A stretch of 64,000 nucleotides of DNA, taken from NCBI RefSeq assembly GCF_000744705.1, contig NZ_JQML01000001.1:7450017-7514016 (forward strand), written 5' to 3'. Shown in pieces: positions 37,644 through 64,000 of this stretch. Position numbers and translations under genes: made by a program. Each line of letters begins with the position of its first letter. The stretch's first letter is position 1. The notes under the pieces were generated by a model. It was not told where the DNA came from. It searched no databases and was given only the letters and a program-made list of their open reading frames with translations. The stretch comes from Streptacidiphilus albus JL83 (GTDB taxonomy: Bacteria > Actinomycetota > Actinomycetes > Streptomycetales > Streptomycetaceae).

Positions 37644-38885
37644 CTATCCCGCTGCGGAGCTGCTGGGAACGAGTGAGACCGGCAGGCTGCTGTAGCCGCG
37701 GAGGAACGTGGAGTAGAGCGGCTTGGGATCACCCATGAGCTCGATCCGCTCCACCCTGCTGCAGAGGGTCTTCAGCACGGCGGCGATCTCGGCCCGCCCG
37801 AGGTACGACCCGAAGCAGAAGTGAGCTCCGTATCCGAAGCCCAGGTGCTTGTTGGGCGTCCTGGCCAGGTCGAAACTCTGCGGATCCGAGAAGACGTCCT
37901 CGTCGCGGTTGGCGGAGGTGTTCCAGAGGATGACGTGGTCGCCTTCGCGGATCGTCCGGCCGCCGATGGTGACCTCGGCCGTCGCGGTACGACCGATGTG
38001 CATCGCCGGCGTCGTCCAGCGCACGATCTCCTCGACCGCGCCGGCTACCGACACCCGGCCCTCCTTCAACGCCAGCCACTGATCGGGGTGCTGGGAGAAG
38101 GCGAGCAGGGTGCCGACCATGGCCAGGCGACTGGTGTGGTCTCCGGCGAGGATGAACCCGTAGCAGTTGACGACCACTTCGTCATCGGTCATCGGCTCAC
38201 CGTTGATCCGGCAGGTGGCCATCGCGCTGATCAGGTCGTCCTGCGGATCCTCACGGCGGGCCTCGATGATCTCCTGGCTGTAGGCGAGGAGTTCGTTGCG
38301 GGAGAGCCAGACCTCCTCCTCGGTCTGCCCCTCGTCGTCGGTGCTGAGCGCCTCCCGGCTCAGGTCGAGCAGGTACTTGTGGTCCTCCGACGGAAAGCCG
38401 AGGAGATCGCCGATCGTCCCCATGGGGACCACCTCCGCGACCTCCTTGGCGAAGTCGAAGGTCCCGGTACCGACGGCGCCGCCGAGGAGATGGTCGACCC
38501 GCTCCTGCAGTTTGTCCGTCACCACTTCGCGGATCCGGGGACTGAACGCCTTCAGCAGGATCGTCCGCATGGCGTTGTGGCGCGGCGCATCGGTGAGCGC
38601 CAGGTTCTTGCCGGCCGCCGGGTCCCCTCCGGGCTTGTGCAGCGAGGACAGCATGTTCCCGGCCCGCGAGCTGAATCGCTCGGGGTCCTGCAGCACGGTC
38701 ATGATGTCCGCGTGGCGGGAGACCACCCAGAATTCGGACCCCTGGTCGGTGGCCGGGTGCAGGTAGACGGGCTGCTCGGCCCGGACACGCCGCCAGAAGT
38801 CTTCCATGTCGGTGTGCAGGAAGGTGTTCGGGTCCGTGAGGTTCACGCGATTGAGATCGTCGGCAAATGCGCCCTTGTTCGACAT
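37644..38885 (-). CDS. Cytochrome P450 of the NRPS cluster
   Basis: A 413-aa P450. ExxR is in AVEEIVRWTTP, the heme loop is GFGYGAHFCFGSYLGRAE. The I-helix reads GFILAGDHTSRLAM, so the usual acidic residue before Thr is His. ATG 38885 has AGGAG upstream. It lies 29 bases after the aminotransferase gene. Probable roles are beta-hydroxylation of a carrier-bound amino acid or oxidation of the peptide. The A-T-TE protein in the right arm is a possible docking partner, by analogy with glycopeptide beta-hydroxytyrosine formation. Confidence 0.88.
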   Translation of the reverse strand: MSNKGAFADDLNRVNLTDPNTFLHTDMEDFWRRVRAEQPVYLHPATDQGSEFWVVSRHADIMTVLQDPERFSSRAGNMLSSLHKPGGDPAAGKNLALTDAPRHNAMRTILLKAFSPRIREVVTDKLQERVDHLLGGAVGTGTFDFAKEVAEVVPMGTIGDLLGFPSEDHKYLLDLSREALSTDDEGQTEEEVWLSRNELLAYSQEIIEARREDPQDDLISAMATCRINGEPMTDDEVVVNCYGFILAGDHTSRLAMVGTLLAFSQHPDQWLALKEGRVSVAGAVEEIVRWTTPAMHIGRTATAEVTIGGRTIREGDHVILWNTSANRDEDVFSDPQSFDLARTPNKHLGFGYGAHFCFGSYLGRAEIAAVLKTLCSRVERIELMGDPKPLYSTFLRGYSSLPVSLVPSSSAAG

Positions 38886-38914: not shown

Positions 38915-40255
38915 CTACTGCGTAGGTGTTTCCTGGCCGGAAAGATCGGCGATCAGCATCGCCAGGCGATCCAGCCCTGCTTCGATCTCGTCCGGCGACA
39001 CCACGCTCACCGAGAGGCGCAGCTGATTCTCGCCGCCACGGCCGTCGTAGAAGTGGCTCATGGGCGTCCACAGCACGCCGTACTTGGTGGCCCCGTATTC
39101 CAGCGCGGCGTCGTCGGCGGTGAACGGAACAGTGACCACCACGAAGAAGCCGCCGCCGGGCGTGTTCCAGGAGACCTGGTGGTCCTCGCCCGGTGGGAAC
39201 CGCCGGCCCATCCCCTCCAGCAGCAGTCGCAGGTTCCGGCGGTAGAGCTGGATCTCCCTGGTGTTCGCCCTGACCAGACTGCAGTCGTGCTCCAGCAGCT
39301 TTCCGCCCGCCAGGGCCTGGGCCACGGGCGAGGTGTTGACGGTGAGCATGCTCTTGATCTTGGACAGCTCGTCGGCGAAAAGCGTCGACTCTCCGTCGGC
39401 GCCGGACACGCGCTGGTCCGCGACGACAAAGCCGATCCTGGCTCCGGGGAAGCAGGTCTTGGCGAGTGAGCCGAGGTAGATCACCCGCCGCGAGGTGTCG
39501 AGGGCCTTGAGCGTGGGCAGGCGCTGACCGTCCTCGGCCTGGAACAGACCGTACGGATTGTCCTCAAGGATCAGCAGGTCGTGCTCGGCCGCGATGGCGA
39601 GCAGTTTCCGTCTGGCCTCCAGGTCGAGGCTCGCGCCGGAGGGGTTGGCGAAGTCCGGGACGAGGTAGAAGGCCCGTGGCCGCCTGCCCGCGGCGCGCAC
39701 CGCCTCGATCTGTTCGACCAGGTGGTCGAGGTCGACGCCGTCCTCGTTGTCCCGCACCGGCCAGAGGGGCATGTCCACCAGCCTCGCGGCGCCGGTCAGC
39801 CCGACGTAGCCCGGCGAGACCGTCAGCACGACGTCACGCTCGTCCACCCGGAGCGCCCGGAGCACCAGGAACATGGCCTCCTGGCAGCCGACCGTGACGA
39901 CGATCGACTCCGGGTCGACGTCGATGCCCTCGTCACCGGCGAGATGCCGGGCGAGCAGCTCGTGAATGATCCCCTTGGTCCGGCCGTACTGGAAGAGGGT
40001 GCGGCGTACGAGTTCCGCGTCCGCGCCCTTCTCGGCCGCCAGGTAGTCGCAGAAGATCTGCAGATATCGGGGAAGGTCGTCGACGTCGAAGAAGTCTTCG
40101 CTGGGCCGCCCGGCGGCGAGCGAGATTGCCTCCGGGAACCGGCCGGCCACCTCGTTCAGGAAGTTCATGGAGGCGAGCGCCGGATCCCGGAGCGCTCCAT
40201 GCAGTCGATCCGTGCTCAGGTCGGCGGCTTTGAGTTCCACTCCACTGTCGTTCAT
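38915..40255 (-). CDS. hpgT: 4-hydroxyphenylglycine aminotransferase (HpgT-like, PLP)
   Basis: A 446-aa fold-type I aminotransferase. PLP residues include N204 (FANPSG), D232 and Y235 (EDNPYG) and the Schiff-base Lys K266 (GSLAKTCFPGARIGF). In glycopeptide and CDA-type pathways HpgT converts 4-hydroxyphenylglyoxylate to L-Hpg, usually with tyrosine as amino donor, which regenerates hydroxyphenylpyruvate for HmaS. HmaS and Hmo are encoded in the right arm, completing the pathway. It could also transaminate the keto acid from the aldolase cassette, since no second aminotransferase is in view. Confidence 0.88.
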   Translation of the reverse strand: MNDSGVELKAADLSTDRLHGALRDPALASMNFLNEVAGRFPEAISLAAGRPSEDFFDVDDLPRYLQIFCDYLAAEKGADAELVRRTLFQYGRTKGIIHELLARHLAGDEGIDVDPESIVVTVGCQEAMFLVLRALRVDERDVVLTVSPGYVGLTGAARLVDMPLWPVRDNEDGVDLDHLVEQIEAVRAAGRRPRAFYLVPDFANPSGASLDLEARRKLLAIAAEHDLLILEDNPYGLFQAEDGQRLPTLKALDTSRRVIYLGSLAKTCFPGARIGFVVADQRVSGADGESTLFADELSKIKSMLTVNTSPVAQALAGGKLLEHDCSLVRANTREIQLYRRNLRLLLEGMGRRFPPGEDHQVSWNTPGGGFFVVVTVPFTADDAALEYGATKYGVLWTPMSHFYDGRGGENQLRLSVSVVSPDEIEAGLDRLAMLIADLSGQETPTQ

Positions 40256-40293: not shown

Positions 40294-41643
40294 CTACTTC
40301 GACGCGCCCTGCTTCGGGGCCGTGGCGGAGGCCTCTTCAAGGGCTTCCGTGGTTTCCGGGGCCTCCGTTGCTTCCGGCGCTTCCGGCGTGGCAGAAGCCT
40401 CTGCCGTCGCTTCCCGAATGGAGCGGTTGCTCAGCGCGGGCAGGCTGAGCAGGGCCACCAGGACCATCAGCAGGCCGCCCATGATGAACGGCGTCCGCAG
40501 ACTGATCGCACTCGCGAGGTAGCCGCCGAGAACACCTCCGAAGGGTGCACCCATGAGCGAGATCAACCGGCTGGCGGAGAGCACCCGTCCGCGGATCTTC
40601 GCCGGTGCCATACGCTGCCGCAGCGAACCGACGATGACGATCTGGATGCTCATCGAGAATCCGATGACGGCCATCATTCCGCCGGCGACCCAGGGGTTTC
40701 CGGTCAGGCCCATACCGGCGACCGCCAGTCCTTCGACGGTCATGCCGATGCAGCGCATGGTGCCCACCTGGAGCTTCCTGGAGACCGTGGAAGCCATGAA
40801 ACTGCCGATGAAGGCACCGACCGCGGTCGAGCTCAGCAGCAGACCGTAGCCGATGTCGCCGAGGCCGTACTGGTCCTTGGCCAGCAGGACCAGCAGCGAC
40901 ATCTGGGCGGTGAAGACGAGGTTGCCGACGGCTGCGGTGCCGGACAGCGCCCGTAGCACCCGGTGCTTCAGCAGCCAGCGCAGCCCCTCCGCGACCTCGT
41001 CACGGAGGTTCCTGCGGGCCGGCTCGGCGGTCGGCGCGTTCCCGAAATCGCCCTTCAGGGACCCGACGAAAATGGCGCTGATCAGGAAGGAGAACGCGTT
41101 CCCCAGAAACGGCAGGGAATGTGACAGGGCGAAGAGCACGCCGCCGAGCGGGGGACCTGCGAGCTGTTCTCCGTTGATCTCGGCTGCGGAGATCCGGCTG
41201 TTGGCCCGGATGAGTGCCTGATCGCCGGAGACGACCACCGGCATGATGGCCTGCGCGGAGATGTCGAAGAAGATGTCTCCGCACCCGAGAGCGAATCCCG
41301 CCACTATCAGCAGGGCGATATCCGCATGGTGGGTCAGTACGGCGACGGTGAGCAGGGCGAGGATGGCGAACCGGACGAGGTCCGCGCGCAGCATCACCTT
41401 CTTCCGGTTCCACCGGTCCACCAGCGCTCCGGCCGGCAGACCGAGCAGGAACCACGGCAGGGTGGCGACGGCGCCGACCGCACCGATGAGCAGGGGATTA
41501 CTGGTCAGTTGGACCGCCAGCAGGGGCAGTGCGGCCAGCTGGACGCCATCGCCCAAGGACGAGGCGATCGTGGCCACCCACACCTTGTTGAAGCTGCTGC
41601 CCAAGCGGGGCTGGGCCGCCTTCTCTGTGCCGGTGATTTTCAA
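40294..41643 (-). CDS. MFS exporter (EntS/MFS_3-like)
   Basis: A 449-aa protein with about 12 membrane segments (TIASSLGDGVQLAALPLLAV, PWFLLGLPAGALVDRWNRKKVML with the loop 2-3 motif, and so on to FIMGGLLMVLVALLSLPAL). The C-terminal ~45 residues are a low-complexity Ala/Glu/Pro/Thr tail. The start is TTG at 41643 with AGGAG five bases upstream. It lies 72 bases after the NRPS stop in the same operon and probably exports the finished peptide, giving self-protection. Confidence 0.9.
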   Translation of the reverse strand: MKITGTEKAAQPRLGSSFNKVWVATIASSLGDGVQLAALPLLAVQLTSNPLLIGAVGAVATLPWFLLGLPAGALVDRWNRKKVMLRADLVRFAILALLTVAVLTHHADIALLIVAGFALGCGDIFFDISAQAIMPVVVSGDQALIRANSRISAAEINGEQLAGPPLGGVLFALSHSLPFLGNAFSFLISAIFVGSLKGDFGNAPTAEPARRNLRDEVAEGLRWLLKHRVLRALSGTAAVGNLVFTAQMSLLVLLAKDQYGLGDIGYGLLLSSTAVGAFIGSFMASTVSRKLQVGTMRCIGMTVEGLAVAGMGLTGNPWVAGGMMAVIGFSMSIQIVIVGSLRQRMAPAKIRGRVLSASRLISLMGAPFGGVLGGYLASAISLRTPFIMGGLLMVLVALLSLPALSNRSIREATAEASATPEAPEATEAPETTEALEEASATAPKQGASK

Positions 41644-41715: not shown

Positions 41716-50682
<8,967 letters not shown>

Positions 50683-50755
50683 TACCAATCACCCTCTTTC
50701 GGGGTTGAGATCGCACGAAGTTCAGCTGGACCAGCAATGCGGATACCAGGACGGC

Positions 50756-53273: not shown

Positions 53274-53334
53274 ACCTTGCGCCCCCTCATGACCTCAGTT
53301 CCTGTCCATGCATTCAGCCGGGATAGTGAAACAA

Positions 53335-54417
53335 ATGGCTAATTCGAACATGTCCATTTTCGATGAACTCGCCGTCGACCATGTCGAGTTCTACGTCCAA
53401 GACACAGCTGTGGCTGCGGCGCAGTTCACAGACGGCTATGGATTCGAGATCTACGGAGCCTCCGCGCCGGCGGAACCTGCCACGGCCATCCGTTCGGTGG
53501 CGCTCGGCAAGAACCGGATCCGGCTGGTGCTGACGACGGCGCAGGGTGCCGACCACCCCGCAGCTGCATATGTCGCGCAGCACGGTGACGGGGTGGCCAA
53601 TATCGCGCTCACCACCCCCGATGCCAGGGAGGCATTCGCCGAGGCAGTGCGCCGGGGTGCCGCGGCGGTGGCGGAACCGGCCGAGCGGGACGGGCTGACA
53701 ACGGCCTCGATCCGGGGCTTCGGAGATGTGATCCACACATTCGTGCAGCGTCCGGCCGGTCGTGATGTACGGGAACTCCCGGGTCTCTCGCCGGTTCCCG
53801 GGACGGGCACCCGGTTCGACAGCGGCCTGGGCGTGATCGACCACTTCGCCGTCTGCGTCGAAGCCGGGCAGCTCGCGCCCACCGTGGAGTTCTACGAAAA
53901 GGTCCTGGACTTCCAGATGATCTTCGAAGAGCGCATTCTGGTGGGCAGTCAGGCGATGGACTCCAAAGTGGTCCAGAGCCGATCCGGTTCCGTCACGCTC
54001 ACCGTGATCGAGCCCGACACCTCGCTGGAGCCGGGGCAGATCGACAAGTTCCTGAAGAACCACGGCGGGGCCGGCGTCCAGCACATCGCTTTCACCGCGG
54101 ACAGCATCGTGGAGTCCGTGGGCCTGCTCAAGTCGCAGGGTGTGTCCTTCCTGGGCACTCCGGATGCCTACTACCGGCTGCTGTCCATGGACCTGACCCG
54201 GTACTCGGTCTCCGAACTGAAGGAACTGGACATCCTGGTCGACGAGGACCATGACGGCCAGCTGTTCCAGATCTTCACCGCCTCGGTCCACCCGAACGGC
54301 ACCTTCTTCATGGAGGTCATCGAGCGCCTGGGCGCCCGCACCTTCGGGAGCGGGAACATCAAGGCACTCTACGAGGCCGTCGAACGGCAGCGGGTCGAAG
54401 CGGAGGCTGAGAAGTAA
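53335..54417 (+). CDS. hmaS: 4-hydroxymandelate synthase
   Basis: A 360-aa non-heme iron dioxygenase of the HPPD family. It converts 4-hydroxyphenylpyruvate and O2 to 4-hydroxymandelate. Fe(II) ligands by position are H170 (VIDHFAVC), H250 (GVQHIAF) and E327 (FMEVIER). The sequence follows HmaS rather than HPPD throughout (LVGSQAMDSKVVQS, GQIDKFLKNHGGAGVQHIAF, TFGSGNIKALYEAVE). The start is uncertain: ATG 53335 fits the HmaS N-terminus, while 53308 and 53350 are alternatives; none has a strong ribosome site. Its stop overlaps the next start (TAATG). Confidence 0.93.
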   Translation: MANSNMSIFDELAVDHVEFYVQDTAVAAAQFTDGYGFEIYGASAPAEPATAIRSVALGKNRIRLVLTTAQGADHPAAAYVAQHGDGVANIALTTPDAREAFAEAVRRGAAAVAEPAERDGLTTASIRGFGDVIHTFVQRPAGRDVRELPGLSPVPGTGTRFDSGLGVIDHFAVCVEAGQLAPTVEFYEKVLDFQMIFEERILVGSQAMDSKVVQSRSGSVTLTVIEPDTSLEPGQIDKFLKNHGGAGVQHIAFTADSIVESVGLLKSQGVSFLGTPDAYYRLLSMDLTRYSVSELKELDILVDEDHDGQLFQIFTASVHPNGTFFMEVIERLGARTFGSGNIKALYEAVERQRVEAEAEK

Positions 54418-55544
54418 TGGCTCAGCAGCCCGGGGCGCCGGTCGACGGAGTGGGAACGCGGCCCGTGTGTGTGGAAGACCTGCAACGGTCGGCCGCCGCG
54501 CGGTTGGCGCCGGAGGTGTGGGACTTCATCGCCGGTGGCAGCGGCACGGAATCCACCCTGGAGGCCAACCGCGCGGCACTGGACAGCGTGTCACTGGTGC
54601 CCAGGGTGCTGGCAGGCGTCAAGAGGAGTGACACCGGTGCGCGGCTGCTGGGTACCTCGGCCGCGCTGCCGCTCGCGGTCGCGCCGATGGCGTACCAGCG
54701 TCTGCTGCACCCGGAGGGCGACCTCGCAGCCGCAGCGGGCGCTCTGGCGGCGCAGGTGCCCTTCGTCGTCAGCACCATCAGCAGTCATTCGCTGGAGGAG
54801 ATCGCCGAGGTCGGGGCGGCCCTGTGGTTCCAGCTGTACTGGTTGCACGATCGCGGCCGGGTGGTCGAGCTGATTCGGCGCGCGGAACAAGTCGGCTGCC
54901 AGGCACTGATGGTGACCGTGGATGTCCCGATCATGGGCCGTCGGCTGCGCGACCTGCGCAACGAGTTCACGCTTCCCTCCTGGATCCGTAGCGCCAACCT
55001 GGAGCCCGACGGCCCTTCCGCAGCACATTCACGCCGACCCAACGAGTCGGCCGTGGCCGCGCACACGAATATCGCCTTCGACTCCACGTTCGGCTGGTCC
55101 GACCTGGAATGGATCCGGGAGCAGACCCGACTTCCCCTGGTGGTCAAGGGCATCCTCGACCCCAGGGACGCGGAACGGGCCGTCCGACTCGGGGCCGACG
55201 CGGTGGTGGTCTCCAACCACGGCGGCCGCCAGTTGGACGGTGCGCCGGCCAGCATCACCGCGCTGCCATGGGTGGTCGAAGCGGTGGACGGGCAGTGCCA
55301 GGTCCTCATGGACAGCGGTGTCCGCAGCGGCACCGACATCCTGCGAGCTCTGACGCTGGGCGCCGATGGCGTCCTGATCGGGCGTCCGGTGCTGTGGGGG
55401 CTGAGTACCGCCGGGGCGCAGGGAGTCACTCAGGTGCTCTCGATCCTGCGGACGGAGCTGGAGGAGGCCCTCCTCCTGGCCGGCTGTGCCGACCTGGCCG
55501 CCGCACGTACCTTGCGCTCGTCCGTCTCCGGTATGCGGGGCTGA
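54417..55544 (+). CDS. hmo: 4-hydroxymandelate oxidase (FMN)
   Basis: A 375-aa alpha-hydroxy acid oxidase that makes 4-hydroxyphenylglyoxylate, the second Hpg step. FMN and catalytic residues include H268 and R271 in VVVSNHGGRQLDG, the Lys in LVVKGI and the phosphate-binding DSGVRSGTDILRALTLGADGVLIGRP. It is coupled to hmaS through a TAATG overlap. Confidence 0.93.
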   Translation: MAQQPGAPVDGVGTRPVCVEDLQRSAAARLAPEVWDFIAGGSGTESTLEANRAALDSVSLVPRVLAGVKRSDTGARLLGTSAALPLAVAPMAYQRLLHPEGDLAAAAGALAAQVPFVVSTISSHSLEEIAEVGAALWFQLYWLHDRGRVVELIRRAEQVGCQALMVTVDVPIMGRRLRDLRNEFTLPSWIRSANLEPDGPSAAHSRRPNESAVAAHTNIAFDSTFGWSDLEWIREQTRLPLVVKGILDPRDAERAVRLGADAVVVSNHGGRQLDGAPASITALPWVVEAVDGQCQVLMDSGVRSGTDILRALTLGADGVLIGRPVLWGLSTAGAQGVTQVLSILRTELEEALLLAGCADLAAARTLRSSVSGMRG

Positions 55545-55625
55545 ATACCGCGTTCGCGGGCCGGCTGCGCGTACCTGCGGGCATCTTCTGTTCCCTCTGA
55601 ACAAACTATGGAAGGGGAAAAAGTC

Positions 55626-57116
55626 ATGCGTGACAAAAACGACCAAGAGTTCGATGTCGTGGTCGTCGGTGGTGGGCCGGGCGGTTCCACCGTGTCCACC
55701 CTGGTGGCTATGCAGGGTTACCGTGTTCTTCTCCTGGAGAAGGAAGAGTTCCCCCGCTACCAGATCGGGGAGTCCCTGCTGCCCTCGACGGTGCACGGTA
55801 TCTGCAGACTCCTCGGCGTCTCGGAGGAGTTGGAGAAGGCCGCGTTCATGCCCAAGCGCGGAGGCACCTTCCGCTGGGGGAGCAGCCCCGAGCCGTGGAC
55901 GTTCTCCTTCTCCGTTTCCGAGACCTTCTCGGGCCCGACCTCACTGGCCTACCAGGTCGAGCGGATGAAGTTCGACCAGATTCTCCTGGACAATGCGCGC
56001 AACAAGGGCGTCGAGGTCCGCGAGAAGAGCTCGGTGGTGGATGTCATCGAGGAGGACGGTCGCGTCTGCGGGGTGCTCTACGCCGACGCCGACGGGGTTC
56101 GGCACGAGGTGCGCAGCCGCTTCGTCGTGGACGCCTCCGGCAACAAGAGTCGCATCCAGAGCCGCATCGGCGGAACCCGGCACTACTCGGACTTCTTCCA
56201 GAACATTGCGCTCTTCGGGTACTTCGAGGGCGGGAAGCGGCTTCCCGCGCCCAACTCCGGCAACATCCTCTGCGCCGCCTTCGAGGCCGGCTGGTTCTGG
56301 TACATCCCGCTCACCGAGGAGCTCACCAGCGTCGGCGCGGTACTGCGGCGCGAGTCCCTGGACCGAGTGCAGGGGGACCGGGAGAAGGCCCTGATGGGCC
56401 TGATCGAGGAGTGCCCGCTCATCGCGGAGTACCTGTCCGGGGCGCACCGGGTGGAGAGCGGACCCTACGGCGAGATCCGGGTCCGCAAGGACTACTCGTA
56501 CTGCCAGGACACGTTCTGGCGCCCCGGCATGGTCCTGGTCGGCGATGCGGCCTGCTTCATCGACCCGGTCTTCTCCTCCGGTGTCCACCTCGCCACCTAC
56601 AGCGGTCTGCTGGCCGCTCGCTCCATCAACTCGACGCTGAGCGGGGACTTCGAGGAGACGAAGTGCTTCGAGGAGTACGAGGCCCGGTATCGGAACGAGT
56701 ACTCGCTGTTCCATGACTTCCTGGTGGCGTTCTACGACATGCACCGGGACGAGGATTCGTACTTCTGGACCGCCAAGAAGGTCATGAACAGCTCGGCGCC
56801 CGGACTCGAGTCCTTCGTCGAACTGGTCGGCGGTGGCGCTTCACGCGAGGGCGGGCTGGTCAACGCCGCCTCCTACACCGAACAGCGCGAGTCCAGGTTC
56901 CGGGAGTTCTCCGAGCTGGCCGACCAGCCCGCGGGCGAGAACGGAACGGATCGCGATCTGTTCGACTCGACGCTCGTCCAGTCGGTACTTGAGGAGGGGG
57001 CCAGGATCCAGGTCCACGCCGCGCTGGGAGAGGTCGTCGACGACGAGGGTCCGATGCGGGAAGGCGGTCTTGTGCCGTCCGCCGACGGAATGCGCTGGGC
57101 GGATTTCCGCTACTGA
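55626..57116 (+). CDS. FAD-dependent phenol-type halogenase
   Basis: A 496-aa flavin halogenase. The Rossmann motif is VVVVGGGPGGST (11-22), K77 is in AFMPKRGG near the catalytic Lys position, the WxWxIP signature is W223-W225-I227-P228 (AGWFWYIPL), and GDAACFIDPVFSSGVHLA binds FAD. The N-terminal PRYQIGESLLPSTVHGICRLLG is like halogenases of glycopeptide pathways that act on carrier-bound phenols. ATG 55626 has GGAAGGGG eight bases upstream, so 55608 is not the start. Likely substrate: Hpg on an NRPS T domain or the peptide. The TGA stop is followed in the same frame by 101 further sense codons. Confidence 0.9.
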   Translation: MRDKNDQEFDVVVVGGGPGGSTVSTLVAMQGYRVLLLEKEEFPRYQIGESLLPSTVHGICRLLGVSEELEKAAFMPKRGGTFRWGSSPEPWTFSFSVSETFSGPTSLAYQVERMKFDQILLDNARNKGVEVREKSSVVDVIEEDGRVCGVLYADADGVRHEVRSRFVVDASGNKSRIQSRIGGTRHYSDFFQNIALFGYFEGGKRLPAPNSGNILCAAFEAGWFWYIPLTEELTSVGAVLRRESLDRVQGDREKALMGLIEECPLIAEYLSGAHRVESGPYGEIRVRKDYSYCQDTFWRPGMVLVGDAACFIDPVFSSGVHLATYSGLLAARSINSTLSGDFEETKCFEEYEARYRNEYSLFHDFLVAFYDMHRDEDSYFWTAKKVMNSSAPGLESFVELVGGGASREGGLVNAASYTEQRESRFREFSELADQPAGENGTDRDLFDSTLVQSVLEEGARIQVHAALGEVVDDEGPMREGGLVPSADGMRWADFRY

Positions 57117-57634: not shown

Positions 57635-58528
57635 ATGTACGCACAAAATGGCTCCATTGCTGACCCTCTTCGCGTGGCTATCATAGGCACGGGAAATATT
57701 GGCTGCGACCTGCTGCTCAAGGTCATGGCTTCGCCCCATCTCCGGTGCGATTCGTTCGCCGGCCGCCGTACCAGCTCGCCGGGTATAGAGCTCGCCGATT
57801 CCCGCGGGATCCCGACGACTGCCGGCGGGATCGACGCCCTTGCCGAGATGGCGGACCGGATCGACGTGGTCTTCGATGCGACGTCGGCCAAGGACGCGGA
57901 GCACAACTGGAAAATACTCGAAGGGCTGGGCGTCCCGGTCATCGACCTCACGCCGGCGCATCTCGGCAGGTTCTGTGTTCCGGCGCTGAACCTGGAGGAG
58001 TGCCTCGCCGAGCCGAACGTGAGCATGGTGACCTGCGGTGGACAGGCCGCAGTTCCCATCGCTCGCTGCTTCAGCGACGCTGCCGAAGACCTGGGCTACC
58101 TGGAGATCGCCACGGCCAGTTCGTCGGCGAGCGTCGGTCCGGCGACCAGGGCGAACATCGACGAGTACGCCTTCACCACGCAGAAGGCCACGCATGAGTT
58201 CTGCCGGGTGGACACCGCCAAGACGATTCTCATCATCAATCCGGCAGAGCCGGGAATCGTCATGCGGAACACCATTGCCGTACCGGATTCCGAGAACATC
58301 GACATGGAAGCGCTGCGCGTCTCGGTCGACAACATGGAGAAGCGGATCAACTCCTATGTCCCGGGCTACCGCGTCGTCGTTCCGCCGGTCGCCACCGGCG
58401 ATCGCATCATGGTGACCATCGAAGTCGAAGGACTCGGTGACTGGTTGCCGCGCTACGCCGGAAATCTGGACGTCATCACCTGTGCAGCAGTGGCTGTTGC
58501 CGAGGGGCGAGCGGAGGCACGTCGATGA
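57635..58528 (+). CDS. Acetaldehyde dehydrogenase (acylating), DmpF/MhpF type
   Basis: A 297-aa NAD-dependent enzyme that interconverts acyl-CoA and aldehyde. NAD site IIGTGNIG (17-23), catalytic C134 in SMVTCGGQA, and the family segments AHNWK-like EHNWKILEGLG and TVRRNTI-like PGIVMRNTIAVP. Slightly short for the family (about 300-310) but complete. Its stop overlaps the aldolase start by 4 bases, as in catabolic operons where the two form a channelling complex. Here it would run toward aldehyde. AGGACAGGTGA precedes ATG 57635. Confidence 0.93.
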   Translation: MYAQNGSIADPLRVAIIGTGNIGCDLLLKVMASPHLRCDSFAGRRTSSPGIELADSRGIPTTAGGIDALAEMADRIDVVFDATSAKDAEHNWKILEGLGVPVIDLTPAHLGRFCVPALNLEECLAEPNVSMVTCGGQAAVPIARCFSDAAEDLGYLEIATASSSASVGPATRANIDEYAFTTQKATHEFCRVDTAKTILIINPAEPGIVMRNTIAVPDSENIDMEALRVSVDNMEKRINSYVPGYRVVVPPVATGDRIMVTIEVEGLGDWLPRYAGNLDVITCAAVAVAEGRAEARR

Positions 58529-59562
58529 GGACACATTCCGAGCGGCAGCTCAAAATCTGCGACACGACCCTGCGGGACGGAAATCACGCCGTATCGCATC
58601 AGCTGGGTCGTACGGACATCGTGGCCTACGCCAGGGCCGCCGAGCTTGCGGGGGCCGACCTCCTTGAGGTCGGGCACGGCAATGGACTTGGCGCCTCGTC
58701 GCTCCAGGTCGGACGCGCCGCGCTGAGCGACGCGGAGATGCTCACCGCCGCGCGTGCCCAGTTGAAGGAGACGCGGCTCGGCGTCCTGTCCATCCCGGGG
58801 TTCGCGACGGTCGAACGCGATCTGAAGCCCGCACTGGACTGCGGAGTGGACGAGGTCAGGGTCGGTGCTCACTGCTCGGAAGCGGACGTGACCCGTCAAC
58901 AGATCACCATGCTCCGGGCGATGGACGTCACCGTCAAAGGCTTGCTGCTGATGAGCCACATGGCGTCGACCAAGAAGCTCATCGAGCAGGCGCGGCTCAT
59001 GGAGGGGTACGGAGCGAACGCGGTCATCCTGATGGACTCCGCCGGCGCGTACACACCGGCCGCAGTCGACGAGAAGGTCGGCGCGCTCGTCGAGGCGCTC
59101 GACATCGAGGTCGGCTTCCACGGGCACAACAACCTCGGCCATTCGGTGATGAACAGCATGGCTGCCATCAAGGCCGGCGCGACCATCGTGGATGTGACCG
59201 CGCGCGGCTTCGGCGCCGGAGCCGGCAACGCACCGCTCGAACTGGTCGCCGCGAACCTGCACCTGGAGCAGATCGAGACCAGGCTCCAGCTGTTCGCGGC
59301 ACTCGACGCGGCCGATCTCGCGGAATCCACCTTCGTCAAGCGCATTCCGACGAACGACAGCGTCACCATCGCGAGCGGTATCGCCGGTGTCTTCTCCGGC
59401 TTCGCCGCGCCCACACGCCGCGCTGCGGAGCGCTTCCAGGTGGACCCTCGGGAAATCCTGATGGAGCTGGGCCGCAGGAGCGTCGTCGCCGGCCAGGAGG
59501 ACGCCATCATCGAGGTGGCGATGGGGCTCGCCGAGAAGAACTCCCTGTACGACATAGTTTGA
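58525..59562 (+). CDS. 4-hydroxy-2-oxovalerate aldolase, DmpG/BphI type
   Basis: A 345-aa Mn-dependent class II aldolase of the DRE-TIM family. D18 (TTLRDG) and H199/H201 (GFHGHNN) are the metal ligands; H21 is the likely base. Two domains with the C-terminal communication domain are present. The reaction is pyruvate plus aldehyde to 4-hydroxy-2-oxo acid. No extradiol dioxygenase or hydrolase of a catabolic pathway is nearby, so a biosynthetic direction is inferred. Confidence 0.93.
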   Translation: MRTHSERQLKICDTTLRDGNHAVSHQLGRTDIVAYARAAELAGADLLEVGHGNGLGASSLQVGRAALSDAEMLTAARAQLKETRLGVLSIPGFATVERDLKPALDCGVDEVRVGAHCSEADVTRQQITMLRAMDVTVKGLLLMSHMASTKKLIEQARLMEGYGANAVILMDSAGAYTPAAVDEKVGALVEALDIEVGFHGHNNLGHSVMNSMAAIKAGATIVDVTARGFGAGAGNAPLELVAANLHLEQIETRLQLFAALDAADLAESTFVKRIPTNDSVTIASGIAGVFSGFAAPTRRAAERFQVDPREILMELGRRSVVAGQEDAIIEVAMGLAEKNSLYDIV

Positions 59563-59590
59563 TGGTCCTTCAGAAAATCGAGGAGCAAAA

Positions 59591-60577
59591 GTGAACGTGG
59601 ATTCCGTACGCGAGGTGGGAGCGGATTATGCGGCGGTCGCCGCACTGCTCCAGATCGGCGCCGAGATCGGCGCGGACCAGGTGCTGGACTCGGGCCGTAC
59701 GTTCGGTGTCGCGGACCTGGCCGGGGCGACGGGTCTTCCCCAGGACCGTCTCAGGGACTACGTCCATGCGCTGTCGGCCGCCGGGCTGCTGGTCGCCGAG
59801 GACGGGAGCGACCTGTACCGCCCCTCCGACGACTACGCGGACTGGCGGCACGAGGTCGGCTACCTGTCCTGGGCGCTGACGGCCAACAGTCCGTTCCTGC
59901 AGAACGCGCGGGCCTTCCTCGCCGGCAGCGAGTCCGCCGCCGACACCTATCGCCGTGACGGCCGCCGGGTGGCGGTCAGCTCGCGCTGGATCGGGGACCG
60001 GGCCTTCTACCCCGCCGTTGTCGAACGGGTCGTGGCCGCCGGCGCGAAGCGCGTCGTCGACCTCGGCGCGGGCGCGGCCGGTCTGCTCATCGACCTTCTC
60101 GTCCAGGACGACCGCCGTTCCGGGGTCGCCCTCGACCTGAGCCCTGCTGCCTGCGCCGCTGCGCGGGAAGCCGCGGGACGGGCCGGCGTGGACGATCGGC
60201 TGCAGGTCGTGGAGCGGTCGGTCGAGTCGCTGATCGCCGATCCCGGTCCGCTCGAAGGGGCGGATGTCATTCAGGCGTGCTTCGTGATGCACGACGTCCT
60301 GCAGAACGAATCCGTCTTCGAGGACGTGCTGCGCACGTGTCACAAAGCCCTCGCGCCCGGCGGCTTCCTGGCCGTGGTCGACGCGGTCTCGTACGGGCAG
60401 GAAGCCCGCGAGCGCAAGTTCAGCGCTCTCTTCACCTACCTGCACTCCGAATTCATGGGAGTCGGTCTGCCCACCGCGGACCAGTGGGTTGAGAAGTTCC
60501 GCAGCGCCGGCTTCTCGAATGTCGATTGCATATCAGAGATCATGCCGGGCGGCCGGCTGTTCCTGGCGACCAAGTAA
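59591..60577 (+). CDS. SAM-dependent alpha-keto acid C-methyltransferase, MppJ-like
   Basis: A 328-aa class I methyltransferase. The N-terminal winged-helix dimerisation domain is residues 1-90; the SAM site is VVDLGAGAAGL (156-166). W94, R126, H234-D235 (VMHDVLQNE) and H285 (TYLHSEFMG) have nearly the same spacing as the substrate- and iron-binding residues I recall in MppJ, the phenylpyruvate methyltransferase of mannopeptimycin. That enzyme methylates C3 of an alpha-keto acid held by a ferric centre. GTG 59591 has GAGGAG upstream. Its place between aldolase and hydratase fits methylation of the cassette's keto acid. Confidence 0.85.
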   Translation: MNVDSVREVGADYAAVAALLQIGAEIGADQVLDSGRTFGVADLAGATGLPQDRLRDYVHALSAAGLLVAEDGSDLYRPSDDYADWRHEVGYLSWALTANSPFLQNARAFLAGSESAADTYRRDGRRVAVSSRWIGDRAFYPAVVERVVAAGAKRVVDLGAGAAGLLIDLLVQDDRRSGVALDLSPAACAAAREAAGRAGVDDRLQVVERSVESLIADPGPLEGADVIQACFVMHDVLQNESVFEDVLRTCHKALAPGGFLAVVDAVSYGQEARERKFSALFTYLHSEFMGVGLPTADQWVEKFRSAGFSNVDCISEIMPGGRLFLATK

Positions 60578-60660
60578 CTTCCCGAGGTCCGAATGGAGGC
60601 GCGCCGAGTTGGGAACAGTTGCGCCGACGACCTGCGCGGCGCCCAACTCGGCCACGAGCT

Positions 60661-61452
60661 ATGCTTCATGATTCCCATGCCGTTCACGAGCAGCTGGCCG
60701 TCGAACTGTGGAACGCCAAGCGGGAGCGCAAGGCGATACCGCCCATCTCCGCTCGGTATCCTGAGTTCACTGCACAGGACGCCTACGCGATTCAGCGTAC
60801 ATTCCGCACCCTTGAACACAAGAACGGGGCGGTGCATGCCGGATACAAGATCGGCGCCACCAGCCTCGCCATCCAGGAGATGTTCGGCGTCGACCAGCCG
60901 GATTTCGGCTTCCTGACCGAAGGCATGCTTCTCGCCGACGGCGCCTGCCTCGACCCGGGATGGTTCATCTCACCCAAGGTCGAGGGGGAGATCGCGTTCC
61001 GGATCGGCGCCGACCTCTCCGATCCCCGTACGACGGCGGCGGATGTACTGGCCGTCACCACCGAGGTCTACCCGGCCCTGGAGGTGCTCGACAGTCGCAT
61101 CGAGAACTGGGACATCGCGTGGGTGGACACCGTCGCGGACAACGCCTCGTCGGCCATGGCCGTCCTGGGTGCGGCCGTTGCCTTCGACGGGCGCGACCTC
61201 GCCGCCGAGACGATGGTGTTCGAGTCGGGTGACTTCGTGCAGACGGCGAAGGGCTCGGCCGTGCTGGGGCACCCGGCGGAGTCCGTGGCATGCCTGGTGC
61301 GCATCCTGGCCTCTTTCGGTGCGGGGATCGGTGCCGGCGACCTGGTCCTGGCCGGATCGCTGGCCGCAGCGGTCGATCTTGAGGCAGGCGCCACCGTCAG
61401 GGCGTCATTCGGGTCCCTGGGATCCGTGTCCCTCTCTGTTTTCGGCAAGTGA
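60661..61452 (+). CDS. 2-oxopent-4-enoate hydratase-like enzyme (MhpD/DmpE family)
   Basis: A 263-aa member of the fumarylacetoacetase-fold hydratase/decarboxylase family. Metal ligands are likely the two Glu in SPKVEGEIAF, with support from YPALEVLDSRIENWD and DNASSA. In catabolism it adds water to 2-oxopent-4-enoate; here the reverse dehydration of the aldol product is inferred. ATG 60661 matches the family N-terminus; the frame above it is not credible. It could instead be a 4-oxalocrotonate decarboxylase relative, but the pairing with aldolase favours the hydratase. Confidence 0.88.
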   Translation: MLHDSHAVHEQLAVELWNAKRERKAIPPISARYPEFTAQDAYAIQRTFRTLEHKNGAVHAGYKIGATSLAIQEMFGVDQPDFGFLTEGMLLADGACLDPGWFISPKVEGEIAFRIGADLSDPRTTAADVLAVTTEVYPALEVLDSRIENWDIAWVDTVADNASSAMAVLGAAVAFDGRDLAAETMVFESGDFVQTAKGSAVLGHPAESVACLVRILASFGAGIGAGDLVLAGSLAAAVDLEAGATVRASFGSLGSVSLSVFGK

Positions 61453-61499: not shown

Positions 61500-63080
61500 G
61501 AAAGGGAGTGATTGGTAATGCAAACGTCAGATGCTGTTGTTTTTGCCGAGGATCGGTCGTTTGAGTCGCACGCGGCGTTGGTCGGCGGTTCGGTGCAGGC
61601 GGCTTTTGCGGCTCAGGTGCTGCGGTCCCCGGATGCGGTGGCGGTGCGGTGTGCGGGGCGGGAGTTGTCGTACCGGGAGTTGGACGAGCGGGCGAACCGG
61701 TTGGCGCACGGGTTGGTGGGTCTGGGGGTGGGTGCGGAGGCGCCGGTGGCGGTGCTGATGGAGCGTTCGGTGGACCTGGTGGTGGCGCTGCTGGCGGTGC
61801 TGAAGGCCGGGGCGTTCTATCTGCCGTTGCACAGTGGCTCTCCGCTGGAGCGGATGCAGTGGATCGTCGACGAGACCTGTGCGCCGGTGCTGCTGGCCGA
61901 CGCCGCGACGCGTGGCCGTGGCCTGCCCACCGCTGACACCGTGCTGCTGGTCGACGATGACGAGGAGTTGGCCGGGCTGCCGAGTGGTGATCCGGGGGTG
62001 GCGGGCCGGCCGGAGCAGTTGGCGTATGTGATGTACACGTCTGGTTCGACGGGGCGTCCCAAGGGGGTGGCGGTGACGCACCGGGACATCCTGGAGTTGG
62101 TGGTGGACGGGATGTTCGGGCCGGGTGCGCACGAGCGGGTGCTGATGGTGGCTCCGTATGCGTTCGATCCCTCGACCTACGAGTTGTGGGTGCCGTTGCT
62201 GCACGGTGGGCGGACGGTGGTGACGCCCGAGGGTGATCTGAGTGTGGCGACGCTGGCGCGGTTGATCGCGGAGGAGCGGATCACCGGGCTGCAGGTGACG
62301 GCGGGTCTGTTCCGGGTGATGGCGGAGGAGGACCCGGGCTGCTTCGCCGGTGTCCGGGAAGTGATCACCGGTGGTGACGTGATCTCGCCGACCGCCGTCC
62401 GCCGGGTCCTGGAACACTGCCCCGACACCCTCGTGCGCTGCGCCTACGGCCCCACCGAGACCACCCTGTTCGCCACCCAGCACCCCTGGACCGCGACCGA
62501 CACCGTACCCGCGCCGATCCCGGTCGGGCGTCCGCTGGACGGCATGCGGGCCTATGTCCTGGACGACATGCTTTCGCTGGTGCGGCCGGGTGTGGCCGGG
62601 GAGCTGTATCTGGCGGGTGCGGGGCTGGCCCGGGGCTACTTCGGGCGGGCGGACCTGACGGCGGAGCGGTTCGTGGCCGATGCCTTCGGTCCGGCCGGCG
62701 GCCGGATGTACCGCACCGGGGACCTGGCCCGCTGGTCCGACGAGGGGCTGCTGGAGTTCGTGGGCCGGGTCGACGACCAGGTCAAGATCCGCGGGTTCCG
62801 CATCGAACTCGGCGAGATCGAAGCGGTACTGGGCCGCTTCCCGGGACTGTCGCAGGTGGCGGTGGTGGCCCGCGAGGACCAGCCGGGCGACAAGCGCCTG
62901 GTGGCCTACCTCGTCGCCGAGACCGGCACCGACGCCCCGAACACCGTGGACACCGTCGACACCGACGCGCTGCGCGCGCACACCGCCGGCCTGCTGCCGG
63001 AGTACATGGTCCCCACCGCGTTCCTCGTGCTCGACCAACTCCCGCTGACCACCAACGGCAAGGTCGACTACCGGGCCCTG
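61500..63080 (+). repeat. A-domain duplication, copy 3 (A-T-TE NRPS)
   Basis: Inverted relative to copies 1 and 2. Similarity drops sharply near 63090, just before the T domain, so the exchanged unit is the ribosome site plus the A domain. Confidence 0.9.
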
Positions 63081-64000
63081 CCCGTCCCGGACATGTCGAC
63101 GACCACCCGGACCGGGCGGGGCCCGCGCACCCCGCGCGAGGAGATCCTGTGCGGCCTGTTCGCCGAGCTCCTGGGCGTGCCCACGGTCGGCATCGACGAC
63201 AGCTTCTTCGAGTTGGGCGGCCACTCCCTGTTGGCGACCCGCCTGGTCAGCCGCATCCGAGCGATCCTGGGTGTGAAGCTCTCGATTCGCAGCCTGCTCA
63301 AGACTCCCACCGTGGCCGCTCTGTCGAACCTGGGCCAGGCGGACAGCGAGGAACAGGACAGCGGACTGGAGCCCGTGCTGAACCTGCGGCCGGTCGGCAG
63401 CCGTCCGCCGCTGTTCTGCGTGCACCCCGGCGGCGGCATGGCCTGGTGCTACGCCGGGCTGCTGCGCTACGCCCCGAAGGAGCACCCGGTGTACGGGCTC
63501 CAGGCCCGTGGACTGGCCGGGGACGAGCCTTTCCCCGCCGATATGGATGAGTTGATCGAGGACTACCTCGGCCGAATCCGAGCGATCCAGCCGTCCGGCC
63601 CGTACGCCCTCCTGGGCTGGTCCTTCGGCGGCAAGGTCGCCCACACCCTGGCGGCCCGCCTCCAGCAGGAGGGCGAGCAGGTGTCCCTGCTGGCCGTGCT
63701 CGATGCCGGCATCGGAGGACACGCCGGCGCGGACAGTACGCGCAGCCAGCGCGATCTCCTGGAACTCGCGTTCGACGGAATCGGAGCCTTCTACGCCGAG
63801 CCGGGTGACGAGCCGATCGAGATGCCGCGAATCCTCGAGATTCTCAAGTCCCATGGCGGAACACTGGCCAGCCTTGAGGAGCGGACTGTCGCCGCTCTCA
63901 TCGACATCACGGAGAACAACCTCAGGATCAGCCGGGCGACAGCCACCGAGCGGTTCGACGGCGACATGCTCTTCTTCGAGGCGGCCGGGCCGGACGGTGC
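61518..64000 (+). CDS. NRPS A-T-TE, cut by the window end
   Basis: At least 827 aa. One adenylation domain (residues ~20-515, hand-read code DPYQIGALFK), one carrier domain ([14 protein letters not shown]) and a type I thioesterase ([31 protein letters not shown]). No C domain precedes the A domain. The A domain and 18 bases before the ATG are nearly identical to the start of the three-module NRPS. It may load an arylglycine for tailoring and then release or transfer it, or make a short product itself. AAAGGGAGTG precedes ATG 61518. The TE is incomplete here. Confidence 0.92.
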   Translation, partial: MQTSDAVVFAEDRSFESHAALVGGSVQAAFAAQVLRSPDAVAVRCAGRELSYRELDERANRLAHGLVGLGVGAEAPVAVLMERSVDLVVALLAVLKAGAFYLPLHSGSPLERMQWIVDETCAPVLLADAATRGRGLPTADTVLLVDDDEELAGLPSGDPGVAGRPEQLAYVMYTSGSTGRPKGVAVTHRDILELVVDGMFGPGAHERVLMVAPYAFDPSTYELWVPLLHGGRTVVTPEGDLSVATLARLIAEERITGLQVTAGLFRVMAEEDPGCFAGVREVITGGDVISPTAVRRVLEHCPDTLVRCAYGPTETTLFATQHPWTATDTVPAPIPVGRPLDGMRAYVLDDMLSLVRPGVAGELYLAGAGLARGYFGRADLTAERFVADAFGPAGGRMYRTGDLARWSDEGLLEFVGRVDDQVKIRGFRIELGEIEAVLGRFPGLSQVAVVAREDQPGDKRLVAYLVAETGTDAPNTVDTVDTDALRAHTAGLLPEYMVPTAFLVLDQLPLTTNGKVDYRALPVPDMSTTTRTGRGPRTPREEILCGLFAELLGVPTVGIDDSFFELGGHSLLATRLVSRIRAILGVKLSIRSLLKTPTVAALSNLGQADSEEQDSGLEPVLNLRPVGSRPPLFCVHPGGGMAWCYAGLLRYAPKEHPVYGLQARGLAGDEPFPADMDELIEDYLGRIRAIQPSGPYALLGWSFGGKVAHTLAARLQQEGEQVSLLAVLDAGIGGHAGADSTRSQRDLLELAFDGIGAFYAEPGDEPIEMPRILEILKSHGGTLASLEERTVAALIDITENNLRISRATATERFDGDMLFFEAAGPDG

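Follow-up and report, generated by a model that had tools for sequence, protein, structure and literature searches.

Introduction

The closest described parallel to the genes treated here lies in cyclomarin biosynthesis, where the residue 2-amino-3,5-dimethylhex-4-enoate (ADH) is portrayed, in passages of PMC8068612 and PMC8401383, as arising from homologation of valine-derived isobutyraldehyde with pyruvate. Passages of the latter also describe the metamarin cluster as devoid of ADH genes, its product having valine instead, and a section of PMC5270213 assigns to the cyclomarin cluster a gene of the MhpD family, Sare_4569. Here we describe, from a 64,000-nucleotide stretch of Streptacidiphilus albus JL83 DNA (the window; positions 7450017-7514016 of one 9.9-Mb contig, NZ_JQML01000001.1), four genes encoding MhpF, MhpE, an SgvM-like methyltransferase and MhpD, located together within a nonribosomal peptide synthetase (NRPS) cluster. 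Sequence comparisons lead us to propose, with a probability of roughly 0.85 that applies to the class of pathway and not to its starter, that these would make up an ADH-type biosynthetic cassette like that of cyclomarin.

Two other systems bear on individual members of the set. SgvM, from the viridogrisein pathway, is described in passages of PMC10502145 as binding zinc through H244 and H296 and methylating C3 of alpha-ketoleucine; the same passages treat both wild-type SgvM and a triple mutant, SgvM-VAV. For the aldolase BphI, passages of PMC3962088 report that L87, L89 and Y290 control aldehyde size and C4 stereochemistry, with Tyr290 providing 4S stereocontrol.

A four-gene cassette shared with a cyclomarin-type cluster

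An original prediction made from this DNA had placed four enzyme genes at 57635..61452, with the methyltransferase between aldolase and hydratase, and the Pfam and NCBIfam families of the four open reading frames agree:

57635..58528, + strand: MhpF/DmpF-type acylating aldehyde dehydrogenase (PF09290, AcetDehyd-dimer, E 7.9e-44; TIGR03215, 337 bits, cut-off 282)
58525..59562, + strand: MhpE/DmpG-type class II pyruvate aldolase (PF00682, HMGL-like, 7.6e-40; PF07836, DmpG_comm, 6.9e-25; TIGR03217, 352 bits, cut-off 286)
59591..60577, + strand: predicted SgvM-type alpha-keto-acid C3-methyltransferase (Methyltransf_12, 1.1e-10; matches to 8ftv and 8ftr)
60661..61452, + strand: MhpD/DmpE-type hydratase, read as a dehydratase (PF01557, FAA_hydrolase, 4.1e-8; from a presumed ATG start, the listed start being a TTG at 60526)

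There is a 4-bp overlap between the MhpF and MhpE genes, whose products pass the NCBIfam equivalog models for acetaldehyde dehydrogenase and 4-hydroxy-2-oxovalerate aldolase, respectively; the nearest model to MhpD is 2-oxopent-4-enoate hydratase, matched below its cut-off (223 vs 409), and the methyltransferase passes no NCBIfam model. Among PDB entries, MhpF matches acetaldehyde dehydrogenases (best E 4.8e-71) and retains the segment MVTCGGQA, whose Cys we take to be the catalytic residue; MhpE matches 4-hydroxy-2-oxovalerate aldolases, 1nvm among them, and has the HMGL-like barrel, the DmpG communication domain and the RDGxH motif; and MhpD matches 2-oxo-hept-3-ene-1,7-dioate hydratase (4e-42) as well as the 2-keto-4-pentenoate hydratases 1sv6 and 2wqt.

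The set has a syntenic counterpart in another genome of the family (G151), in the same order F-E-MT-D (F, MhpF; E, MhpE; MT, methyltransferase; D, MhpD) and with identities to the window proteins of 65%, 79%, 58% and 65%, respectively. Directly upstream of MhpF in G151 is a Trp prenyltransferase gene (PF11991) whose product matches CymD (6os3; 653 bits over 372 residues); upstream of this CymD orthologue is a 7892-residue, seven-module NRPS, of which modules 2 and 6 include a methyltransferase domain, and farther upstream are genes for a PhyH dioxygenase, a P450 and an FkbM methyltransferase, a content that fits that described for cyclomarin and metamarin. The four gene families of the window are reportedly those published as the ADH genes by Schultz in 2008; the passages of the reviews do not name the enzymes. 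Synteny with the CymD-bearing locus supports, as a pathway class, the predicted repurposing of degradation enzymes to build a beta-methyl, gamma,delta-unsaturated alpha-keto acid, and it backs the parallel with cyclomarin that had been drawn. The novelty implied for the route does not hold, as isobutyraldehyde plus pyruvate is already in print as the source of ADH in the passages of PMC8068612 and PMC8401383. The window adds one more example of a pathway type published for cyclomarin, in a different cluster that carries halogenase and 4-hydroxyphenylglycine (Hpg)-type genes.

By the proposed route, MhpF would convert an acyl-CoA to an aldehyde, and MhpE, judged by its family, would join that aldehyde to pyruvate to form a 4-hydroxy-2-oxo acid, both enzymes presumably working in this direction. 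MhpD would remove water, in a reversal of its catabolic reaction, to yield a 2-hydroxy-2,4-dienoate/gamma,delta-unsaturated 2-oxo acid, and the methyltransferase may, by the reaction type of its SgvM relative, methylate C3 through a zinc-bound enolate; since C3-methylation is irreversible, it would pull the dehydration forward. A transaminase would then furnish the beta-methyl, gamma,delta-unsaturated amino acid, to be loaded by an NRPS module of the Hpg/halogenase cluster.

The catabolic equivalog models passed by MhpE and MhpF would also suit a lower meta-cleavage pathway, either still functional or a remnant, acting on an aromatic compound, and the set does belong to the same families as DmpG-DmpF, BphI-BphJ and the MhpD of meta-cleavage, with catalytic motifs retained. 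It differs from these systems in its expected synthetic direction, in having Phe for Tyr290, and in the lack of an extradiol dioxygenase alongside. As the prediction had held, no ring-cleavage dioxygenase was detected in the window, where the sole PF00903 matches are the two halves of an HPPD-family gene at 53308-54417 (intradiol and cupin types were not searched). The only LigB (PF02900) match of the genome is 1.75 Mb from the window, directly upstream of the MhpD gene of a further, degradative-looking MhpD-F-E set of the Tyr type (L053, at 9.27 Mb). The window set has a halogenase gene on one side and an NRPS gene on the other, and in 7 of the 15 loci considered below the cassette comes after genes for an HPPD-family protein, an oxidase and a halogenase. 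A degradative role is, in our assessment, the least probable of the alternatives.

Distribution, gene order and phylogeny

Matches to the window methyltransferase at E 1e-40 or better occur in 14 of 394 genomes of the family. Eight of these (the genome itself, G319, G249, G223, G365, G151, G238 and G031) carry MhpD, MhpE and MhpF; in the other six (G118, G056, G293, G023, G343 and G196) none of the three was found in the 17-20 kb around the methyltransferase gene. A single scan of genome contigs supplied ten named loci, L036-L045, and a class-level search (394 genomes) gave four matches at E 1e-60, all within the window's own family; the relatives found are from Streptomycetaceae and one Actinomadura. 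The named loci derive from S. sp. M41 (L036), S. bicolor (L037 = G319), S. parvulus (L038), S. sp. G44 (L039 = G223), S. sp. GESEQ-35 (L040), S. smaragdinus (L041 and L045), S. sp. CB02400 (L042 = G365), Actinomadura (L043) and S. camponoticapitis (L044).

Removal of duplicates left 21 distinct methyltransferase loci, over all of which the counts were taken. MhpD is present in 15 (window, G249, L036-L045, G151, G238 and G031), and MhpE and MhpF also in 14 of those 15, neither having been found in L043, a 17.5-kb piece. A statement that the methyltransferase and MhpD always occur together was dropped as partly circular, the cassettes having been defined by both. Every one of the 13 methyltransferases at least 58% identical to that of the window is accompanied by MhpD, and 12 of them also by MhpE and MhpF; at 44-49% identity MhpD accompanies two of eight (G238 and G031, about 4 kb away in the latter).

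These figures bear on a variant of the pathway without dehydration, in which aldol addition, C3-methylation and transamination would give a gamma-hydroxy, beta-methyl amino acid of the 4-hydroxyisoleucine type, MhpD acting otherwise. Aldol addition and methylation are chemically enough for such a product, and homologues of MhpD are catabolic hydratases; but MhpD stands with the methyltransferase in all 13 closer loci, even in the Actinomadura locus in which MhpE and MhpF were not found, and the ADH of cyclomarin, as the passages cited above present it, is unsaturated. We consider this variant highly improbable.

The order F-E-MT-D is found in 8 of the 15 loci (window, G249, L036-L040 and G151), which argues that the grouping is more than chance. 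In L041, L044, L045 and G238 the order is MT-D-F-E followed by an aminotransferase gene, while L042 and G031 are rearranged. The seven loci in which the cassette occurs with HPPD-family, oxidase and halogenase genes are the window, G249 and L036-L040; the Hpg/halogenase cluster is almost complete in G249, L037-L040 being fragments of 9.6-12.1 kb. In midpoint-rooted FastTree trees of the fetched loci, window-type aldolases group with that of G151 (support 0.999), and those of L041, L042, L044, L045, G238 and G031 fall separately, nested among aldolases from loci without the methyltransferase (larger clade 0.998). The dehydrogenase tree has the same split (support 1.0 for window-type plus G151), and for methyltransferase and MhpD, G238 and G031 stand apart as a distinct lineage (0.999 and 1.0). 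Two aldolase-dehydrogenase lineages, together with the separate methyltransferase-MhpD lineage of G238 and G031, indicate that the set was put together repeatedly or that its members were swapped. The recurrent association of the four families is the strongest argument, at the level of sequence, that they would serve one shared pathway.

The cassettes also occur among other kinds of gene. That of G031 (L091) is interspersed with genes for a methylaspartate mutase E chain, a TauD oxygenase, an ATP-grasp ligase and a KAS III, with an ornithine/lysine N-oxygenase gene near. In G238 (L046:5477-13403) the MT-D-F-E-aminotransferase set lies beside an LnmK-type gene, between NRPS and polyketide synthase (PKS)-like genes, and the halogenase next to it is 65% identical to that of the window. 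In four loci the cassette is joined by a FabH-like KAS III gene (L041:14964-15956, L044:9725-10726, L045:14727-15713 and L091:13763-14782).

The methyltransferase

The closest solved relatives of the window methyltransferase, a class I enzyme, are 8ftv and 8ftr (E 2e-88 and 6e-88, respectively; about 299 bits over residues 11-326), the next being MppJ at 1e-13. Over aligned residues 22-337 the two structures differ solely at positions 144, 329 and 331 (M/F/T vs V/V/A); we take them to be SgvM because these three residues match SgvM and SgvM-VAV, the PDB listing saying just "Methyltransferase". Besides this strong match, the window protein has both zinc ligands aligned: H234 and H285 correspond to H244 and H296 of SgvM, and both are the same in each of 13 aligned homologues and in every tabulated methyltransferase locus. 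It differs in the pocket, where M144, F329 and T331 of SgvM are replaced by I134, M318 and G320.

The last of these positions bears on a simpler explanation, whereby the methyltransferase would act alone, as a beta-methylase of the SgvM or MppJ type making beta-methyl-leucine or a beta-methyl-aryl amino acid, the MhpD, MhpE and MhpF genes being accidental or otherwise employed. Six loci whose methyltransferases are 44-48% identical to that of the window do lack the other three genes in the 17-20 kb fetched, and the cluster, having an HPPD-family gene, handles 4-hydroxyphenylpyruvate. Yet all 15 methyltransferases accompanied by MhpD have Gly where SgvM has T331, and the 6 lacking MhpD all have Thr; the closer loci have MhpD without exception, as noted above; and the fetched flanks of L041-L045, G151 and G365 contain no HPPD-family match. 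A methyltransferase acting alone is very unlikely, if marginally less so than the pathway without dehydration, and within the proposed cassette its substrate is probably an unsaturated keto acid rather than alpha-ketoleucine.

The aldolase and the choice of starter

At the positions of BphI L87, L89 and Y290 the window aldolase has Leu, Ile and Phe, a set identical to that of G151. Tyr290 is accordingly not kept, and Phe290 is found in all 13 cassette aldolases inspected of the 14 (G249 was not included). Losing 4S control would do no harm, as the stereocentre at C4 would disappear on dehydration. Among PF07836 loci, the first 30 listed all have Tyr (flanks of about 1.5 kb), and 20 weaker loci, picked as a subset of the remaining list, comprise 12 with Phe, 7 with Tyr and one unreadable (L116), with no methyltransferase within about 13 kb of any. 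Phe290 therefore marks a subfamily.

Other members of this subfamily have settings of their own. A second Phe290-type MhpF-MhpE pair in the same genome (L054:6896-16584, about 9.71 Mb) has no methyltransferase or MhpD match; it is followed by a JmjC/cupin gene, an aminotransferase gene, an ornithine cyclodeaminase-family gene and a MaoC-type dehydratase gene, its aldolase and dehydrogenase fall in one clade with those of L098, L103 and L105, and the arrangement suggests a further biosynthetic role for such an aldolase pair. L101, L102, L104 and L106-L111 are Phe290-type MhpD-MhpF-MhpE sets without a methyltransferase, with neighbors that, judged by eye, resemble CitE/HpcH in L104, L107 and L109 and a MaoC-type dehydratase in L104 and L109.

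With regard to the starter, isobutyraldehyde and hence ADH are favored, if anything, because the window aldolase is closest to that of the cyclomarin-type locus and shares its residues at the three pocket positions. We would give a branched C4 aldehyde, with ADH as product, just short of an even chance; acetaldehyde is distinctly less likely, propionaldehyde slightly less so again, and any other starter improbable. The original prediction had given the lead to acetyl-CoA and dehydro-isoleucine and had included an ADH-type residue; the latter part is borne out as an option, and the former is reduced to one option only, with aldolase similarity leaning toward isobutyraldehyde. A broader and tentative proposal, to which we attach rather less than even odds, is that a portable pathway has been assembled more than once in actinomycetes, from two aldolase-dehydrogenase and two methyltransferase-hydratase lineages, that it serves a family of beta-methyl, gamma,delta-unsaturated residues with chains fixed by the aldehyde, and that the window makes a non-ADH residue, such as 2-amino-3-methylpent-4-enoate or 2-amino-3-methylhex-4-enoate, in an Hpg-containing, probably chlorinated peptide.

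Adenylation domains and transaminase

The window cluster has eight adenylation (A) domains across three NRPSs (41716-50688, 61512-64145, and a third running on to 77314), all of which begin with A and thiolation (T) domains lacking a preceding condensation (C) domain and end in a thioesterase (TE). Codes were extracted by anchors; two A motifs of G238 lacking a recognisable A5 were excluded, and two such in G151 were recovered. The code DPY[DQ]IG[AT]L[FY] is common to five of the eight domains, the others being DAFWFGGVFK (NRPS3 A2), DMEDSGVISK (NRPS1 A2) and, approximately, DVF(G/V)VCIVYK (NRPS3 A4), and all eight recur nearly unaltered in G249. That of NRPS3 A2 resembles what we presume to be Val/Ile codes (the comparison codes for Val, Hpg and Dpg being likewise presumed), with no residue assigned.

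Aminotransferases of the HisC/Pat type adjoin the cassette, or lie at most a few kb from it, in 7 of the 15 loci with MhpD; four others are the pieces of 9.6-12.1 kb, and the Actinomadura locus has a class V enzyme. The HisC/Pat-type enzyme of G249 and L036 is 53% identical to that of L041, and its closest copy in the genome of the window is at 4.94 Mb (57%). The class I aminotransferase and the P450 of the window cluster have copies in G249 that are 89% and 87% identical, respectively.

Several findings weigh against the proposed cassette. No A domain of the window clearly matches that of module 7, the ADH module, of G151 (31-49% identity over A3-A5), whose code is DAMVLGVVAK, the most aliphatic-looking code in the window being DAFWFGGVFK; this mismatch concerns the product rather than the cassette. 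The window cluster has no counterpart of the HisC/Pat-type aminotransferase found in its sister clusters in G249 and L036. Phe290 was rejected as a marker of the cassette, since 12 of the 19 weaker PF07836 loci that could be read have it too, with no methyltransferase. G151 was called cyclomarin-type from its gene content, in place of the Salinispora cym locus itself (Salinispora arenicola CNS-205, BGC0000333, in which we take CymE-H to be the gene names, with the corresponding enzyme assignment). Finally, all cassette members considered here are known from sequence alone. Relative to cyclomarin, then, the likeness lies in the families and order of the four genes, and the difference in the Hpg-type and halogenase genes and in the number and codes of the A domains.

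The surrounding gene cluster

The other features of the cluster within the window are as follows:

37644..38885, - strand: cytochrome P450 (PF00067)
38915..40255, - strand: class I aminotransferase, candidate for Hpg and/or the cassette keto acid (PF00155, E 2.8e-27)
40294..41643, - strand: major facilitator superfamily (MFS) exporter (PF05977/PF07690)
41716..50688, - strand: NRPS1, A-T-C-A-T-C-A-T-TE (motif map, A-domain codes)
53308..54417, + strand: HPPD-family gene, probably 4-hydroxymandelate synthase for Hpg supply (TIGR01263, HPPD, 339 bits, cut-off 277)
54417..55544, + strand: FMN-dependent alpha-hydroxy-acid oxidase, probably 4-hydroxymandelate oxidase (PF01070, E 5.9e-129)
55608..57116, + strand: FADH2-dependent halogenase (PF04820, E 9e-73; best PDB match the halogenase 3e1t, 1.6e-171)
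61512..64000, running on to 64145, + strand: NRPS2, A-T-TE, A code DPYQIGALFK (AMP-binding, PP-binding and Thioesterase; motifs)

The cassette thus follows the HPPD-family, FMN oxidase and halogenase genes and precedes NRPS2, with NRPS1 and the MFS, aminotransferase and P450 genes on the divergent side. Just past the window end are genes for a siderophore-interacting-protein-like reductase, a four-module synthetase, an Na/H exchanger and a member of the Asp/Asn hydroxylase family. By analogy with known pathways, the HPPD-family gene, the FMN oxidase and the aminotransferase suggest a supply of Hpg; NCBIfam itself names the first of these HPPD, and we read it as 4-hydroxymandelate synthase because the FMN oxidase adjoins it. 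The product of the cluster is probably a chlorinated peptide, and no paper linking the cluster to a compound was found in the open-licence literature. Downstream of the cluster, on the - strand, is a very long open frame of 5580 residues (about 91379-108121 in window numbering), whose opening residues suggest that it is possibly a second NRPS.

Implications

With these comparisons, a pathway known from one compound, cyclomarin, becomes a recognisable cassette, identified by an SgvM-like methyltransferase with Gly at the T331 position together with MhpD. It is found in at least four clearly different settings, namely the Hpg/halogenase, CymD-type, LnmK/PKS-type (G238) and MutE-type (G031) clusters. 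Recognition of the cassette would allow genomes to be mined for alkenyl, beta-methylated residues in unknown peptides, and the four enzymes provide a way of making such amino acids with different chain lengths; the conserved Hpg/halogenase cluster, represented by seven loci, is a concrete place to seek the product.

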